Source of the DNA: Haloferax sulfurifontis ATCC BAA-897
GTDB taxonomy: Archaea; Halobacteriota; Halobacteria; Halobacteriales; Haloferacaceae
Assembly: GCF_000337835.1 (NCBI RefSeq)
Contig: NZ_AOLM01000028.1
Location: 1-64,000 of the forward strand
DNA: 64,000 nucleotides
Reading direction: 5' to 3'
Of the stretch, positions 30,583 through 38,669 are shown piece by piece. The notes beneath the pieces were generated by a model. That model was given only the letters and a program-made list of their open reading frames with translations, was not told the origin of the DNA and ran no database searches. Each line of letters starts with the position of its first letter. Positions within the stretch are counted from its first letter, which is position 1. Both the position numbers and the translations under genes were made by a program.

Positions 30583-32238
30583 TCAATCGTCGTTCGGGAA
30601 CCACGCCCGCGGCCGCTCCGACCCGACCGGAAGCTTCAGCATCACGGCCGTCCCCCCGAGGGAAGACGGTTCCAACTCCATGCTCCCGCCCGCTTTCTTG
30701 ACGACCCAGTGGACCAGCCACAGGCCCATCCCGGTCCCGTGTTCGAGCGGCGTCTCCTCGCCGCGCTTGATAACTCGCCACTCCTCGTCGGGGATGCCCG
30801 GCCCGTCGTCGGCGACTCGCACGATGAGTTTGGAGTCGTCGTCTTCGGCTCGACACACGTCGATGTGAACGGTCTCGCCCCCGTGTTTGAGCGCGTTCGC
30901 GATTAGCTCGTCGAGCGCCGCGCCGACGCGGCTGTCGACTCGCTCGCGGAGCCCCGTCTCGATGTCCGTCCGCATCGTCGCCTCCGGATACGCCGATTCG
31001 GCTCTCGACACGGCGTCCTCGACGAGCGTCGAGACGCGCCGCGGCGACCCCTCGGATTCGAGGGCGTCCGAGACCGTCTGTGCCTTCTCGGAGAGCGACG
31101 CGAGGTCGCCCGCCGCCTCGACGATGGCCTCGGCGGCATCGGCGAGTTCCTCGTCGGCGACCGCGGCCTCGTTCTGGCGAATCAGCTCCGCGTAGCCCTC
31201 GATGACGTTCATCCGGTTTCGGAGGTTGTGCCGGAACATCCGGTTGAGGACGCCGAGCCGCTGTCTGGTCAGCTCCGACTCGGTGACGTCGGACTGGATG
31301 GCGACGTAGCCGTCGATGTCGCCGTTGCTCTCGATGGGCGCGATAGTCTGTATCGCGGTGTAGAGCTCGCCGCCCTTCCGTCGGTCGATGATTCGCTCCT
31401 GCCACGTCTCGCCGGACTGGACGGCCCGCCACAGCCGCTCGTAGTACGTCTCGGGCATCTCGCCCGAACTGAGTATCGACGCCGGTTCGCCGATGACCTC
31501 CGCGGCGTCGTAGCCGGTCGTCTCCTCGAACGCCGGGTTGACGTACGTAATCTCTCCGTCCGGCGTGGTGAGGTAAATCGCGTGGCCCGCCTGCTCGACG
31601 GCCTGCTCGAACTCGCGGAGTCGCCGCTCCCGGCGCTGTTGTGCCGTCACGTCGACCAAGACGCCGACGATTTCGGAAACCTCGCCGTCGGCGTCGCGGA
31701 TGACCGCCGTCGAGAGGCGGAACTCTCCGTGGTCGCCGTTCGCGCGTCGTCGCTCGACCGCGACGTTCGAGAGGCCGTCTTCGGCGATGGTCCGCCGGAT
31801 AATCTCCTCGACGCTTTCGCTGTTCTCACCGCCTTCGCTCGCGCCGTAGGGGATTAGCTCGCCGAGCACCTCCTCGCGTTCCCAGCCGAACGTCTCCGTG
31901 GCGGCGTCGTTCCACCTCGTTACGCGCCCCTCGGGCGTGACCGCGGTAATCGGCACCGGCGACGCGGCGACCACGGTTCGAAGGTGCTCCAGCGACGACC
32001 GAACTGACGCCTGTTGGCGTTCGATTCGGCGGTCCTTCCGGGCGACGAGCGCCCAGACGAACGCGGTGGAGACGGCGACGAAGGACAGCCCGCCGACGAC
32101 CTTGGCCGCGGGAGTCGGGGTCGAACCCAACACGGTCGACAGCAGTAACTCGCCGCCGAGGATGCCGGCGGTCCCGAAGCCGAGGTACGCCAGCGCGATG
32201 GCGCGGGCGTCGAGACCGTCGAGCGGCGAGTCGTTCAT
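30583..32238 (-). CDS. Membrane-anchored PAS sensor histidine kinase
   Basis: 551 aa. Two N-terminal transmembrane helices (about 13-35 and 44-66), then PAS 1 (ASPVPITAVTPEGRVTRWNDAATETFGW), PAS 2 (AGHAIYLTTPDGEITYVNPAFEETTGYDAAEV), a dimerisation helix with the phospho-His in FRHNLRNRMNVIEGYAELI, and an ATPase domain with LDELIANALKHG (N box), VADDGPGIP (G1) and GTGMGLWLV (G2). All key residues are present. The promoter TTTATATC lies about 28 nt before the ATG, so the message is probably leaderless. No response regulator is next to it, as is common in haloarchaea. Confidence 0.96.
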   Translation of the reverse strand: MNDSPLDGLDARAIALAYLGFGTAGILGGELLLSTVLGSTPTPAAKVVGGLSFVAVSTAFVWALVARKDRRIERQQASVRSSLEHLRTVVAASPVPITAVTPEGRVTRWNDAATETFGWEREEVLGELIPYGASEGGENSESVEEIIRRTIAEDGLSNVAVERRRANGDHGEFRLSTAVIRDADGEVSEIVGVLVDVTAQQRRERRLREFEQAVEQAGHAIYLTTPDGEITYVNPAFEETTGYDAAEVIGEPASILSSGEMPETYYERLWRAVQSGETWQERIIDRRKGGELYTAIQTIAPIESNGDIDGYVAIQSDVTESELTRQRLGVLNRMFRHNLRNRMNVIEGYAELIRQNEAAVADEELADAAEAIVEAAGDLASLSEKAQTVSDALESEGSPRRVSTLVEDAVSRAESAYPEATMRTDIETGLRERVDSRVGAALDELIANALKHGGETVHIDVCRAEDDDSKLIVRVADDGPGIPDEEWRVIKRGEETPLEHGTGMGLWLVHWVVKKAGGSMELEPSSLGGTAVMLKLPVGSERPRAWFPNDD

Positions 32239-32429: not shown

Positions 32430-33494
32430 ATGAAACGACGAGACGCAATCAAGACGCTCGGAATCGGAACCCTCGCGGCGACCGCGGGGTGTCTCGGCGG
32501 GTTCGAACGACAGTCGGCGTGGCGCGACCCGCCGCTCGTCGAAGACCGGCCGGCCGCGGTCTATCTGCCCGCCATCACCGAGGGGATGAAGATGTACGGG
32601 GAGACGACTGCCGGACCGTACGGCGTCGCGCTCACCTACTCGTATCCCCACCGCTTCTGGACGGCCGCCGGTTCGGAGCTTCAGAAGACCGTCGTCGAGG
32701 CCGACGACTCGATTCACCTCATGGCGTCGCTGTGGGACGCCGAGACGGGGACCGTCCTCCCGCTGGATGCCGGCGTCTCAATCGAGATTCTCCGCGACGG
32801 CGACCTCGTGAGCGAGGAGGTCGCCTACCCGATGCTCTCCCAGCAGATGGGGATGCACTACGGCTCGAACTACGTCCTCGACGGCGAGGGCGACTACGAG
32901 GCCCGCGTCCACGTCGGCGGCACCTCGCTTTCCCGGACCGGCTCGTTCGCCGGGCGGTTCGAGTCGGCCGAGACGGCGACGTTCGAGTTCGCGTTCGAGA
33001 CCGACGACCTCTACGACGTGGAACTGCGGCGCCTCGGCGACGAGGCCGGGTCGCGCGGCGCGGTCCCCGCGATGGAGATGATGGGCGTCCCGACCGGGAA
33101 AGCGCCCGCAGTCGCCGACCTCCCCGGTCGCCACATCGGCCGGCAGACGAGCGCGGACGCCCTGTTCGACGCCTTCGTCGTCGACGACGGCTCCCGGTTC
33201 GGCGTCGACGGCGCGTACCTCTACGTCTCGGCGCGGACGCCGCACAACGAGTTCGTCCTGCCGATGATGGGCGTCAGAGCCACGCTCGACCGCGACGGAA
33301 CGACGGTCCTCGACGGCGCGCGACTCGCCCGGACGCTCGACCCCGACCTCAGCTACCACTACGGCGCGGGCGTCGAGGGCGTCGAATCCGGCGACGCGCT
33401 GACGCTCTCGGTGGACGTGCCGCCGCAGGTCGCCCGCCACGACGGCTACGAGACGGCGTTCATGACGTTCGAGCCGATGCGGTTCGAGGTCTGA
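32430..33494 (+). CDS. Tat-lipoprotein, Tp34/P19-like metal-binding (iron transporter type)
   Basis: 354 aa. Tat signal MKRRDAIKTLGIGTLAATAGC with a lipobox Cys at residue 21. The first half resembles Tp34/P19 periplasmic metal-binding proteins: Met- and His-rich EGMKMYGETTAGPYGVALTYSYPHRFW and QQMGMHYGSNYVLDGEGDY. A second copy-like domain has VYVSARTPHNEFVLPMMG and SYHYGAGVEGV. Bound metal could be iron or copper. It is followed by a zinc-finger membrane protein and a polytopic protein in the same direction, probably a metal-acquisition unit. Starts at ATG 32430. Confidence 0.85.
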   Translation: MKRRDAIKTLGIGTLAATAGCLGGFERQSAWRDPPLVEDRPAAVYLPAITEGMKMYGETTAGPYGVALTYSYPHRFWTAAGSELQKTVVEADDSIHLMASLWDAETGTVLPLDAGVSIEILRDGDLVSEEVAYPMLSQQMGMHYGSNYVLDGEGDYEARVHVGGTSLSRTGSFAGRFESAETATFEFAFETDDLYDVELRRLGDEAGSRGAVPAMEMMGVPTGKAPAVADLPGRHIGRQTSADALFDAFVVDDGSRFGVDGAYLYVSARTPHNEFVLPMMGVRATLDRDGTTVLDGARLARTLDPDLSYHYGAGVEGVESGDALTLSVDVPPQVARHDGYETAFMTFEPMRFEV

Positions 33495-33592
33495 GACGGC
33501 GCTTCGATGTTTTCGACCCTCACCGCCCGACGCGGACGCCCGCGATGGAAACGTTCAGAAGCCAACCCCTCCGAACTTCGAGTGACTATCGG

Positions 33593-33850
33593 ATGACCAC
33601 GGACACAGACGCGACGCGCGACCGCCACACCTGCACAGCGTGCGGCGAGGCGTATCCGACCGAGCGACTGCTGGTCCTCCATCGGGGCGCGAGACACCCC
33701 GACGACCTCGACGCCGCGGAGGTCGAGGCGTATCGAGAGGCGTACTACGAGGAGGAAGGCGAACTCAAGTCGTTCCGAATCCGGGCGCTCGGCGTCCTCG
33801 TCCTGCTGTACTTCGGATTCCTCATGCTGTTTATCGTCTTCGCATCATGA
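33593..33850 (+). CDS. Small C2H2-type zinc-finger membrane protein
   Basis: 85 aa. The N-terminal half holds Cys14-x2-Cys17-x12-His30-x4-His35 (HTCTACGEAYP to GARH), a classic C2H2 finger; the C-terminal half is one transmembrane helix, ALGVLVLLYFGFLMLFIVF. Known in haloarchaea as the DUF7410 type. Its stop overlaps the next ATG (ATGA at 33847), indicating translational coupling. It may regulate or assemble the polytopic partner. ATG 33593 is preferred; upstream in-frame Met at 33545 would add 16 residues. Confidence 0.85.
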   Translation: MTTDTDATRDRHTCTACGEAYPTERLLVLHRGARHPDDLDAAEVEAYREAYYEEEGELKSFRIRALGVLVLLYFGFLMLFIVFAS

Positions 33851-35256
33851 CCCGACTCCGACCCACCACTCTCAGGCGATTCGGTCTCGGCCTCCTCGTG
33901 GCGAGTCTGCTGTCGCTCCTCGCCGACCCGGCGGCCGCGAGCAACGCCGCGGTCGGCCTCGCGGGCGCGTCGCAGGACAACCTCGCTGTCCCGCGGTGGC
34001 TCTATCTCGCCACCGGCGGCGCGACCGTCGGTGCGTCCGCGCTCCTCGCCAGTTTCGTCACCGACCGCCGGTTCATCGAGCGCGTCCACCTGTGGCAGAC
34101 CGGCCCCGAAGCGGGCGTCTCCGACGGCGTCCTGCGCGCGCTCCGGGTCGCGGGCGGCGTCCTCGGCCTCGCGGTCCTCGCGCTTGCGGTCTACCTGGGC
34201 TACGCCGGCCCGCAGATTCCGACCGTCAGCTTCGCCGTCATCGTCGTCTTCGCCGGACTCCGCGCCGGCTACACGATGCTCTCGTACCTCGTCGCCGACA
34301 CGTGGCGCGCGCTGAACCCGTGGCGAACCGTCGTCTCGGCGGTTCCGAACGGCTTCGTCTCGTACCCCGAGCGGCTCGGCCGCTGGCCGGCAGTCGTGGG
34401 GATTCTCACGCTCGTCTGGGTCGAGACCGCGACCGCCGTCACGACTCGGCCGTCGGTCCTCGCGACGGCGCTCGTGGTCTACTCGGTCGTCACCCTCGTC
34501 GGCGCGGTCGTCGTCGGCGCGGACGCGTGGTTCGACAACGTCGACCCCGTCTCCGTCTTCCTGCACTTCTACGGCCGGGTCGCGCCGGTTCGCCTCGACG
34601 GCGACGGCCTCTCGTTCCGCCTGCCGGGGATGCGACTCGTCACCGACGACGACCTGACGGACCTCGGCGACGTGGCCGTCGCGGTCGTCCTCGTCTGGGA
34701 ACTCACCTTCAGCGGCTTCGTCACGACCGAGCAGGGCGCGGCGGCCGTCCGGTCGCTGGCGGGTGTCGGTCTCCCGCCGCTTTTCGTCTACGGCCTGCTC
34801 TACCTCGGCGGCTTCGGGGTCTTCCTGGGACTCTACGTCCTCGCGGCGCGGGTGACCGCCAGCCGCATCGACACCTTCGAGACGCCGCTCGACCTCGCGG
34901 TCAAATTCGCCCCCCCGCTTCTCGCCATCGCCGCCGGCTACCACCTCGCGCACTACTTCGGCTTCTTCGTCTCGCTGTCGCCGATGCTCGTCCACGCGCT
35001 GTCGTCGCCGCTGTCGTCGCCGGCGAACCCGGTCGTGCTCACGCTCCCCGCGTGGTTCGGCGGTCTGAACGTCGGGTTCGTCCTCCTCGGCCACCTGCTC
35101 GCGGTGTGGGTGGCGCACTCGCAGGCCTACCGGACCTTCCCCAGCAGACTGCAGGCCGTCCGGAGTCAGTTCCCCTTCGTCGCGGTGATGATTCTGTACA
35201 CGATTCTCAGCCTGTGGCTCATCTCGCTGCCGACCGCGTCCCCGCCGTTCCTCTGA
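33847..35256 (+). CDS. Polytopic membrane protein, about 10-12 helices
   Basis: 469 aa, not recognised. An N-terminal signal-like segment (LGLLVASLLSLLADPAAASNA) is followed by hydrophobic helices across the whole length, with HYFGFFVSLSPMLVH and WELTFSGFVTTEQG as landmarks. Coupled to the zinc-finger protein and close to the Tp34-like lipoprotein, so it may be a metal permease or ion channel (inference). No ATPase or MFS motif. The stop codon overlaps an inverted repeat that belongs to the control region of the P-type ATPase. Confidence 0.8.
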   Translation: MTRLRPTTLRRFGLGLLVASLLSLLADPAAASNAAVGLAGASQDNLAVPRWLYLATGGATVGASALLASFVTDRRFIERVHLWQTGPEAGVSDGVLRALRVAGGVLGLAVLALAVYLGYAGPQIPTVSFAVIVVFAGLRAGYTMLSYLVADTWRALNPWRTVVSAVPNGFVSYPERLGRWPAVVGILTLVWVETATAVTTRPSVLATALVVYSVVTLVGAVVVGADAWFDNVDPVSVFLHFYGRVAPVRLDGDGLSFRLPGMRLVTDDDLTDLGDVAVAVVLVWELTFSGFVTTEQGAAAVRSLAGVGLPPLFVYGLLYLGGFGVFLGLYVLAARVTASRIDTFETPLDLAVKFAPPLLAIAAGYHLAHYFGFFVSLSPMLVHALSSPLSSPANPVVLTLPAWFGGLNVGFVLLGHLLAVWVAHSQAYRTFPSRLQAVRSQFPFVAVMILYTILSLWLISLPTASPPFL

Positions 35257-35351: not shown

Positions 35352-38027
35352 ATGAGCGAACACGACGGGCGCGACCCCGACTCCGACCTCGATGAGGGTG
35401 CGGACGCGTCCACGGACTCGCAGGAGGGCGACGAATGCGGGTGCGGCGACGCCTGCGAGGTCGAGTCCGCGTCGGCGTCGGGAGCGCCCGGCGAGACGGG
35501 CACCGGCGACCCCATCGGCGGGTCCGACGGTTCGGCCCGCGCGGAGTTCGGCGTCCCGGAGATGGACTGCGCCTCCTGTGCGAGCAAGGTCGAAACGAGC
35601 GTCCGGAAACTCGACGGCATCGGCGACGTCGACCCGCGGGTGACGACCGGCCGGCTCGTCGTCGACTACGACCCCGACCGGACCACGACCGATGACATCC
35701 GGGGAAACATCGAGGGCGCGGGCTACGCCGTCGAAGGCGGCCCCTCGACGCGCGAGGTGTCGCTTTCCGTCCCGGACATGGACTGCGCCTCCTGCGCCGG
35801 GAAGGTCGAGAACGCGCTCCGGGGCGCGCCGGGCGTGCTGTCGTACGAGACGCGCCCGACGACCGGGACTGCGCTCGTCACGCTCGCGGCCGACGCGGAC
35901 CTCGATTCGGTCGTCTCGGCCGTCGAATCCGCCGGCTACGAGGTCACCAGGACCGACGCCGACGACGGCAACGAGGGTCACGGTCACTCTCACGGCGGTT
36001 CCGACGCGGACCGCGAGAGCGTCTGGCGCAGTACGCGCGCGGTCAAAACGTGGGTGAGCGGCGGCTTCCTCGCGGCGGGCATCGCCGCCGAGTACCTGCT
36101 CGGGCTGGAACTCGTCGTCGCCAGCGTTCTCGGCGTCTCGTTCACGGTCGCCGAACTGCTGTACGTCCTCGGGGCCGCGGTCGGCGGGCAGGCCATCCTC
36201 CGCAACGGCTACTACTCGGCGAAGAACCGCAGTCTCGACATCGACTTCCTCATGTCGGCGGCGATTCTCAGCGCCGTGGCCGCGAGCCTCATCTCCGGGC
36301 CGACGAGCCTCTACTTCGAGGCGGCGACGCTCGCGTTCCTCTTCAGCGTCTCCGAACTCCTCGAACGCTACTCGATGGACCGCACGCGCGACTCCCTCCG
36401 CGAACTGATGGACCTCTCGCCCGACGAGGCGACGGTCCTCCGCGACGGCGTCGAGACGGTCGTTCCCGTCGAAGAACTCGAAATCGGCGACGTGGTCGCC
36501 GTCAAGCCCGGCGAGAAGATACCCGTCGACGGGACGGTGGTCACGGGCGACAGCGCGGTCAATCAGGCCCCCATCACCGGCGAGTCCGTCCCGGTCGACA
36601 AGACCGCGGGCGACGAGGTGTTCGCGGGCACCGTCAACGAGGCTGGCTACCTCGAAGTCCGCGTCGAGTCCGCCGCGGGCGACGACACCCTCTCGCGCAT
36701 CGTCTCGATGGTCGAGGACGCTCAGTCCAACAAGACCGAACGCGAGCAGTTCGTCGAGCGCTTCTCGTCGTACTACACCCCCGTCATGGTCGTCGTCGCG
36801 GTCGCGGTCGCGGCGATACCGCCACTCGCGTTCGGCCTCGACTGGGTGACGTGGTTCGTCTACGGCATCACGATGCTCGTGCTCGCCTGCCCCTGCGCCT
36901 TCGTCATCTCGACGCCCGTCTCGGTCGTCTCGGGCATCACGTCGGCCGCGAAAAACGGCGTGCTCATCAAGGGCGGCACGCACCTCGAAGCGATGGGCTC
37001 GGTCGAGGCCATCGCCGTGGACAAGACGGGCACGCTCACGAAAGGCGAACTCACCGTCACCGACGTGGTTCCGCTCAACGGCAACTCCGAAGAGGACGTG
37101 CTCCGGTGCGCCCGCGGCCTCGAATCCCGGAGCGAACACCCCATCGGCGAGGCCATCGTCTCCCACGCCGAGGGGACGGGCGTCGCCGGCCGCGAGGTCG
37201 ACGACTTCGAGAGCGTCACCGGCAAGGGCGTCCGCGCCGACCTCGACGGCGTCCCGCACTTCGCCGGCAAGCCCGGCTTCTTCGAGGAGCTCGGCTTCGA
37301 CCTCGAACACGTCCACGTCACCGGCCCCGGCGAGGAGCTTTCGGCGGACGTCCGAGAGCTCTGTGACCGCCACGGCTGTCTCAACCTCGTCGAGGACACG
37401 ATTCCGCGCCTCCAGTCCGAGGGCAAGACGGTCGTCGTCGTCGGCACCGAAGACGACCTCGAAGGCCTCGTCGCCGTCGCCGACGAGGTCCGCCCCGACG
37501 CCCGCGAGACGGTCGCGAAGCTCCGGGAGGCCGGCCTCTCGGTCGTCATGCTCACCGGCGACAACGAGGGGACCGCCCGCGCCATCGCCGAGCAGGTCGG
37601 CGTCGACGACGTCCGCGCGGGCCTCCTCCCGGAGGACAAGGTCGCCGCCGTCGAGGGACTGCTCGACGAGTACGGCTCGGTCGCCATGGTCGGCGACGGC
37701 ATCAACGACGCCCCGGCGCTCGCCACCGCCACCGTCGGCGTCGCCATGGGCGCGGCCGGCACCGACACCGCCCTCGAAACGGCCGATATCGCCCTCATGG
37801 CCGACGACCTCTCGAAGCTCCCGTACCTCTACGAACTCTCCCACCGGGCCAACGGCGTCATCCGGCAGAACATCTGGGCGTCGCTCGCAATCAAGGCCGT
37901 CCTCGCGGTCGGCGTGCCCTTCGGCTACGTCTCGGTCGCGCTCGCGGTCCTCGCGGGCGACGCCGGGATGACCATGGGCGTGACGGGCAACGCGATGCGA
38001 CTCGCACGGATTCGCCCGGACGAGTGA
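35352..38027 (+). CDS. P1B-type heavy-metal exporting ATPase, probably Zn/Cd/Pb (ZntA-like)
   Basis: 891 aa. Two HMA domains, each with MDCASC (Cys at 73/76 and about 148/151), preceded by a Cys-rich CGCGDAC segment and followed by a His-rich linker GHGHSHGG. Core: TGES in ITGESVPVDK, ACPCAFVIS (CPC in the transport helix), DKTGTLTKGE with the phosphorylated Asp, SEHPIGEAI and VGDGINDAPAL. The last helices read AGDAGMTMGVTGNAMRL, the D-x-G signature of Zn/Cd/Pb pumps (P1B-2), instead of the M-x-x-S-S of copper pumps. Auto-annotation as CopA would probably be wrong. Regulated likely by dyads in its promoter. Confidence 0.95.
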   Translation: MSEHDGRDPDSDLDEGADASTDSQEGDECGCGDACEVESASASGAPGETGTGDPIGGSDGSARAEFGVPEMDCASCASKVETSVRKLDGIGDVDPRVTTGRLVVDYDPDRTTTDDIRGNIEGAGYAVEGGPSTREVSLSVPDMDCASCAGKVENALRGAPGVLSYETRPTTGTALVTLAADADLDSVVSAVESAGYEVTRTDADDGNEGHGHSHGGSDADRESVWRSTRAVKTWVSGGFLAAGIAAEYLLGLELVVASVLGVSFTVAELLYVLGAAVGGQAILRNGYYSAKNRSLDIDFLMSAAILSAVAASLISGPTSLYFEAATLAFLFSVSELLERYSMDRTRDSLRELMDLSPDEATVLRDGVETVVPVEELEIGDVVAVKPGEKIPVDGTVVTGDSAVNQAPITGESVPVDKTAGDEVFAGTVNEAGYLEVRVESAAGDDTLSRIVSMVEDAQSNKTEREQFVERFSSYYTPVMVVVAVAVAAIPPLAFGLDWVTWFVYGITMLVLACPCAFVISTPVSVVSGITSAAKNGVLIKGGTHLEAMGSVEAIAVDKTGTLTKGELTVTDVVPLNGNSEEDVLRCARGLESRSEHPIGEAIVSHAEGTGVAGREVDDFESVTGKGVRADLDGVPHFAGKPGFFEELGFDLEHVHVTGPGEELSADVRELCDRHGCLNLVEDTIPRLQSEGKTVVVVGTEDDLEGLVAVADEVRPDARETVAKLREAGLSVVMLTGDNEGTARAIAEQVGVDDVRAGLLPEDKVAAVEGLLDEYGSVAMVGDGINDAPALATATVGVAMGAAGTDTALETADIALMADDLSKLPYLYELSHRANGVIRQNIWASLAIKAVLAVGVPFGYVSVALAVLAGDAGMTMGVTGNAMRLARIRPDE

Positions 38028-38192: not shown

Positions 38193-38669
38193 ATGGCAGA
38201 TGACGAGCGGACGCCACGCCGTGACGCGACCGACCGACCGGACCGACCGACGCGCGGTCGGGACGCCGGCGAGACCGCCGAGACCGACGCGGGACGCACC
38301 CGGAGACGGTTCATCTGGCTCACCGGGACCGCCGCGATGGCGGGGCTGGCCGGCTGTTCCGGCGGCGGTGGCGGCGCGGCCGAGACGACCGCGACCGCGA
38401 CGACGACGCAGTCGTCGGGGTCGACCGGGGGCGTCCCCGCGGAGTACGCGACCGCCACGTCCCTCGGCGGCACCCAGCGCAACCCCGATAGCCTCTCGTC
38501 GCAGGAGGCCGTCTCGTATCAAGAGGAGCCGAGCGAGGGCAGGCAGTGTTCGACCTGCCGGTACTACATCGAGGACAAAAACGGGGACGGCGTGGGCGCG
38601 TGCGCCATCGTCGCGGGCGAGATTTCGCCCGAGGGCTACTGCGTCTCCTACGTGGAGTACGAGGGGTAG
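38193..38669 (+). CDS. Tat-lipoprotein HiPIP (high-potential iron-sulfur protein)
   Basis: 158 aa. Twin-arginine RTRRRFIWLTG, lipobox LAGC (Cys55), a Gly/Thr/Ser-rich linker, then the HiPIP domain with four cluster Cys at 119, 122, 137 and 150 (QCSTCRYY, GACAI, GYCVSY). It carries a 4Fe-4S cluster at high potential on the outside of the membrane, probably as an electron carrier. The ATG at 38193 places the Tat motif near residue 36, after a long charged N-region; longer frames have no support. Confidence 0.92.
   Translation: MADDERTPRRDATDRPDRPTRGRDAGETAETDAGRTRRRFIWLTGTAAMAGLAGCSGGGGGAAETTATATTTQSSGSTGGVPAEYATATSLGGTQRNPDSLSSQEAVSYQEEPSEGRQCSTCRYYIEDKNGDGVGACAIVAGEISPEGYCVSYVEYEG

Follow-up and report, generated by a model that had tools for sequence, protein, structure and literature searches.

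A haloarchaeal P19-type lipoprotein encoded beside a polytopic membrane protein of no known family: a probable metal-supply unit, most likely for copper

In the described P19 and FtrA systems, a P19-type protein works with an FTR1 iron permease, a family characterized by conserved RExxE motifs. Relatives of P19 serve iron elsewhere, according to PMC9174327. We analyzed a locus with a protein of this type in Haloferax sulfurifontis ATCC BAA-897 (genome of 3.8 Mb, 99.5% complete). The window, to which the positions below refer unless another region is named, is the stretch of 64,000 nucleotides from positions 1 to 64,000 of contig NZ_AOLM01000028.1. The original prediction for this locus described a Tp34/P19-like Tat lipoprotein, a C2H2 membrane mini-protein and a polytopic protein of no known family, and proposed that they form a possible uptake system, with iron implied by analogy, in which the lipoprotein uses a partner other than an FTR1-type permease. 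The three genes probably represent a previously undescribed system for the supply of a metal, most likely copper.

The three genes and the P19-type lipoprotein

The three genes, all on the forward strand, are real as described. Gene 1 (32430..33494) encodes a Tat lipoprotein of the P19/Tp34/FtrA type with 354 residues, a lipobox cysteine at position 21 and a second, P19-related C-terminal domain, DUF7350. Gene 2 (33593..33850) encodes an 85-residue finger-plus-one-helix protein of the DUF7410 kind, with C14 (codon at 33632), C17 (33641), H30 (33680) and H35 (33695), and gene 3 (33847..35256) encodes the polytopic protein of 469 residues, with a signal peptide and ten predicted transmembrane helices. 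Genes 1 and 2 are spaced by 98 bp, and an alternative in-frame ATG at 33545, upstream of the gene 2 start, would add 16 residues. The proposed coupling of genes 2 and 3 is borne out by an ATGA overlap at 33847-33850. After an AT-rich gap of 95 bp follows a gene for a heavy-metal P1B ATPase with two HMA domains (35352..38027, forward strand), for which the best NCBIfam match is of the Zn/Cd/Pb type. This ATPase is a conserved neighbor in Haloferax and on some other plasmids, and its membership in the three-gene unit is uncertain. The gene order of the window recurs on plasmids of the two other Haloferax species examined. Conservation of each of the three proteins reaches far outside Haloferax, so that the three-gene observation is more than chance.

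Two further genes of the window flank this region. A PAS histidine kinase gene (30583-32238, reverse strand) is divergent from the lipoprotein gene and is kept in Haloferax. At about 38196-38669 on the forward strand, with an unsure start codon, lies a gene for a lipobox-bearing protein with a Cys-rich end, the counterpart of which in Haloferax alexandrinus is annotated as a high-potential iron-sulfur protein (HiPIP), a kind of electron carrier that is uncommon in archaea.

The P19 label of the gene 1 product proved right, as follows from matches obtained with Pfam, a PDB profile search, Foldseek and VIA-align. The Pfam Iron_transport model (PF10634) scored 21.4 bits, which is marginal against its cut-off of 21, and DUF7350 scored 177.9 bits. 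A profile of 45 family members had FtrA (8vv5) as its best PDB match (E 3.3e-6), with weaker matches to P19, FetP and Tp34. The predicted model (pLDDT 89.2, pTM 0.86, from 35 rows) gave 29 Foldseek matches at E <= 1e-3, including FtrA (E 6e-6), FetP, P19 and HftA, and VIA-align matched residues 51-196 to Tp34, HftA, FetP, P19 and FtrA with Z of 12-13.5 and an rmsd of about 2.3-2.8 over 130-138 residues. The N-terminus contains an RR motif (KRRDAIK) and the lipobox TAGC; the NCBIfam TAT model scored 11.4 bits, below its cut-off of 16.7.

Eight potential ligands in the first domain (E51, M53, H74, H96, M98, M135, M140 and H143), as well as H337 in the second, are invariant in 35/35 relatives. 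Within the copper-site motif PM..GxHYG, M135 and H143 align to the Met and His of FtrA, and we assume for them the ligand roles of P19 and FetP. The third P19 histidine had no clear counterpart in the first domain by eye. The two halves of the protein are related (hhalign probability 94.5, E 7e-8; reversed control, probability 11.6); the gene 1 product is thus a P19-type protein with an added second, related domain. A second P19/DUF7350 gene of the same genome (region L022, 5850-7000; contig C3) is broken across two frames at the domain border, for which a sequencing error, a pseudogene and a real frameshift are all possible; it overlaps an SCO gene and has DUF7405, CcdA and TlpA genes nearby.

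The polytopic protein and the finger-plus-helix protein

The polytopic protein was correctly assigned to no known family. Pfam revealed no family of substance for it or for its 79 family members, NCBIfam gave no match to it, and a PDB search with a profile of the family found no convincing match. Its predicted model (pLDDT 90.8, pTM 0.89, from 66 rows) matched nothing in the PDB at E <= 1e-3 in the structure search proposed with the prediction (Foldseek), and the best VIA-align Z was only 4.7. On these searches, the candidate explanation that gene 3 encodes a known family in disguise was rejected; an unmatched PDB fold is not proof of a new fold. A possible resemblance to actinobacterial proteins annotated as "fenitrothion hydrolase" found no confirmation in the literature searched, where the term occurs, judging by title, in insect-microbiome papers.

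The distribution of basic residues was examined along the predicted helices. Loops 1, 3, 5 and 7 contain 3.3, 3.5, 6.1 and 2.0 K/R per sequence, respectively, and the other loops and both ends contain fewer than 1. Together, the predicted helices and this distribution fit a protein that loses its signal peptide by cleavage, crosses the membrane ten times and has its two termini outside. Nine residues are identical in 79/79 relatives (W153, E193, Y212, D233, Y365, H369, H416, H424 and T452), of which the three histidines, H369 (34951), H416 (35092) and H424 (35116), sit mid-helix in predicted TM8 and TM9.

The predicted mature N-terminus was also compared among relatives, with signal peptide cleavage judged by eye. 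In proteins of the CopC type and their relatives, the histidine at the mature N-terminus serves as a ligand for copper. An A-H step at the predicted end of the signal peptide (A-HGG, A-HAG) was found in 28 of 66 rows, namely in 16/19 rows from oxidase loci, 9/13 from other loci and 3/33 from P19 loci, and most bacterial members have the same step. The window protein reads A-SNAAVGL, with no His at this site; it belongs to a clade in which the predicted mature N-terminus is without the His of most other members. The stricter rule that this residue is lost exactly where a P19 gene adjoins fails on both sides, since 3/19 oxidase-locus rows (Natrialbaceae) are without it and 3/33 P19-locus rows have it. 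In the same genome, a second polytopic gene (region L021, 6780-7300; contig C11) has no in-frame ATG, GTG or TTG before the first helix, and the ATG that overlaps the upstream stop is in another frame, so that a frameshift near its start is likely.

In the gene 2 product, C14, C17, H30, G32, H35 and E54 are kept across 36 family members, with the four finger residues C14, C17, H30 and H35 invariant. The "C2H2" label needs correction: the family is represented in Pfam by DUF7410 (PF24166), which matches 33/36 members at E <= 1 (best E 4e-14), although the window copy by itself reaches 15.2 bits and falls short of the 27.5-bit cut-off. The basic residues ahead of the single helix suggest that the CxxC/HxxxxH finger lies on the cytosolic side.

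Distribution and gene neighborhoods

A scan of GTDB-based contigs yielded 317 relatives of gene 3, of which the best 80 were kept, 76 of them with distinct polytopic sequences. Among these 76 loci, a gene 2-type gene is present within 2 kb at 60, always on the same strand as the polytopic gene (31 downstream, 29 upstream), and one also adjoins the second polytopic copy of the H. sulfurifontis genome. The survey of gene neighborhoods that had been suggested as a check of the prediction showed conserved neighbors: a P19 gene occurs within 5 kb at 40/76 loci, in three arrangements (same-strand upstream at 20, convergent at 17, downstream at 3), which indicates that the adjacency has outlived rearrangement. 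By our estimate, from about two P19 copies per 3.8 Mb, such adjacency would arise by chance at well under 1% of loci. On the tree of the 80 rows the P19-adjacency label changes 4 times, compared with 27 for shuffled labels, a contrast inflated by near relatives.

We further surveyed the presence of both families in 292 haloarchaeal genomes that were at least 90% complete. The gene 3 family was found in 212/292 and DUF7350 in 254/292; 211 genomes have both families, 1 has the polytopic protein alone, 43 have DUF7350 alone and 37 have neither. Gene 3 is thus nested inside the P19 distribution, even without gene adjacency. FTR1 (PF03239) is absent from the H. sulfurifontis genome and from all of 116 haloarchaeal genomes (0/116), in a search in which the control genomes matched, and a hidden FTR1 partner was therefore rejected. 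These conserved neighbors, the nested phyletic pattern (211/212) and the lack of FTR1 make a different membrane partner, as originally proposed, the best reading. Cox11 and Caa3_CtaG are likewise missing from the H. sulfurifontis genome and from the same number of haloarchaeal genomes (0/116, control genomes matched), and CopD gave two matches in the H. sulfurifontis genome, both below the cut-off.

The presence of gene 3 also tracks one class of cytochrome oxidase. COX3 was detected in 287/292 genomes, with match scores forming two peaks; where the COX3 match is strong (E <= 1e-26), 191/201 genomes have the polytopic protein, against 21/91 where it is weak or missing, an odds ratio of 64 at a cut chosen post hoc from the two-peaked distribution and across genomes that are not independent. 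The proposition that every haloarchaeal oxidase requires gene 3 fails on the overall counts for the two genes: COX3 occurs in nearly all haloarchaea, and oxidase assembly thus has no general need of gene 3.

Pfam was run on 129 of the 137 genes that neighbor loci without a near P19 gene. COX3 was the commonest family (16), and the others included MTH865 (6), Arginase (5), COX4_pro (5), DUF7541 (4), COX1 (3) and COX2 (3). For P19 loci (114 of 147 genes), the scan gave P-type ATPase (7), HMA (6), DUF7405 (4), DSBA (3) and COX3 (2). The second polytopic copy of the H. sulfurifontis genome has DUF7546 and a gene that fuses COX1 with COX3 in its vicinity, and SCO, TlpA and CcdA genes adjoin the polytopic gene on Natrialbaceae plasmids. 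A literature search found no paper on DUF7350, DUF7410, DUF7405, DUF7546 or DUF7541, and locus tags beginning with E6P09_165, the range of the H. mediterranei relatives of the window genes, are absent from the main text of PMC11218638.

Relatives of gene 3 extend to bacteria, and a bacterial member used as query retrieved 67 plasmid records, haloarchaea among them. Clear copper genes are present in 5/9 annotated bacterial regions (two further regions are unannotated). These are PCu(A)C on two Sulfitobacter plasmids that are near copies of each other (confirmed with Pfam for one), CopC together with oxidase subunit III in Mycobacterium gallinarum, and MMO/AMO-type copper monooxygenases in M. 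chubuense and M. dioxanotrophicus. Copper genes were not seen in the regions of Sagittula, Fuscovulum and Rhodococcus (3/9), and a galactose-oxidase-like gene farther away in the Pseudonocardia region was not counted. Actinobacterial polytopic genes are ATGA-coupled to genes for small lipoproteins with an HxH motif (L016, 6228-6665; L107, 4501-4992; L109, 4588-5004; L111, 4579-4989), which look cupredoxin-like by eye; one of the four gave a weak Pfam match (E 0.033). These lipoproteins are a possible stand-in for P19 in actinobacteria.

DyP-like genes lie near gene 3 at 7/76 loci. In Haladaptatus, Halomicrococcus and Haloarcula, DyP-like Tat genes adjoin P19 genes and polytopic genes. P19 genes without gene 3 adjoin DyP-like (DUF7405) Tat genes in some plasmids, the Pfam name having been checked on some copies. 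DyP-type peroxidases have their catalytic Asp in a GxxDG motif. The DUF7405 Tat proteins (L004, 12714-14021; L008, 8036-9307; L020, 7322-8602; L022, 7774-9081) have a distant DyP-type look, with a Dyp_perox_C match on one of them (E 9e-4), and the catalytic Asp seems to be missing because the GxxDG stretch reads GFKSG or GFKAG.

A probable metal-supply unit and its relation to known systems

The reading that we prefer, to which we give slightly less than an even chance, is that the three genes form an extracytoplasmic metal-capture and membrane-transfer unit, most likely providing copper for the heme-copper oxidase and other copper proteins. Given its fold and Met/His motif, the P19-type lipoprotein would capture the metal outside the cell and pass it to the polytopic protein, in which the three invariant histidines of helices 8 and 9 may form a metal path. 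The finger-plus-helix protein, with its CxxC/HxxxxH on the cytosolic side, could then accept the metal or steady the complex. Import into the cytosol and an outer-face relay to the oxidase are both compatible with the data. Transport, its direction and the metal are inferences; gene 3 is a putative permease and metal uptake a possible role of the system. The originally proposed partnership with P19 holds with its conserved neighbors; iron, implied by analogy, becomes the less likely metal, since the wider family of gene 3 suggests a link with cytochrome oxidase and with copper proteins. Several findings count against a copper unit: bacterial P19 proteins are parts of iron-uptake systems, P19 occurs without gene 3 in 43/292 genomes and also beside DyP-like genes, the downstream ATPase is of the Zn/Cd type, oxidase genes are rare beside P19 loci (COX3 2/114), and 3/9 annotated bacterial regions have no copper gene. 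A broader proposal, which we hold to be doubtful, is that the gene 3 family is an unrecognized copper transporter or insertion factor that serves heme-copper oxidases and other copper enzymes in both haloarchaea and bacteria and, in the former, takes the place of Cox11/CtaG. The window branch would then have given up the N-terminal copper ligand and would take its metal from the P19-type lipoprotein, whose kind works elsewhere with FTR1 and iron.

Iron uptake is a serious rival, even if we consider it unlikely. In the manner of P19-FTR1, FtrABCD and EfeUOB, the P19 lipoprotein, with the DyP-like Tat protein at some loci, would feed ferrous iron to a polytopic protein that replaces FTR1. The P19 fold and sequence, the best PDB profile match to FtrA, the DyP-like Tat genes beside P19 and polytopic genes and the absence of FTR1 all favor it, as does the occurrence of such genes beside P19 genes without gene 3. 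However, polytopic genes adjoin oxidase genes more often than DyP-like genes, bacterial relatives of gene 3 lie near copper chaperones, RExxE is found in only 8/79 gene 3 members, and none of the six terms sought occurs in the H. volcanii iron-starvation proteome paper (PMC11349517). Copper is better argued than iron, on the grounds of the COX3 neighbors, the tracking of the COX3 class and the presence of PCu(A)C, CopC or copper monooxygenase genes close to bacterial relatives. The same oxidase neighborhood, together with the three membrane histidines as heme ligands and the HiPIP and SCO/TlpA/CcdA neighbors at some loci, could instead point to a heme- or quinone-linked electron-transfer protein that reduces P19-bound metal or supplies electrons for oxidase assembly, but gene 3 is unlike known heme membrane proteins in Pfam and in fold, and we regard this as improbable. 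Quite improbable, too, is a metal-resistance island in which the unit, the Zn/Cd ATPase and CDF transporters export or sense Zn/Cd or copper. A P1B ATPase lies within 5 kb at 17/76 loci and a CDF gene at 6/76, merB is near one locus and many gene 3 copies are on plasmids, yet most polytopic genes have no such neighbor and the chromosomal class of gene 3 sits with oxidase genes.

Gene 3 resembles FTR1/EfeU in that its association across genomes makes it the polytopic counterpart to a P19-type protein; it differs in having ten predicted helices, no Pfam FTR1 match and no conserved RExxE. Its relatives share an oxidase or copper gene neighborhood with Caa3_CtaG, Cox11 and CopD, and the predicted mature N-terminal His of many of them presumably recalls CopC-type sites, yet none of these families has a Pfam match in the 79 members. 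With no Pfam model or fold match, a distribution nested in that of P19 and a link to one oxidase class, the family has a role that is testable genetically. Gene 2 is like DUF7410 in its finger segment and differs in the sub-cut-off score of the window copy. Gene 1 has the beta-sandwich fold (residues 51-196) and the aligned Met and His of P19, FtrA, FetP, Tp34 and HftA, and differs from them as a lipoprotein whose chain continues into a further, related domain. Its genome has no FTR1, and the FTR1 partner is a feature of the known systems and not of the fold; gene 3 would give P19 proteins another type of partner in addition to FTR1.
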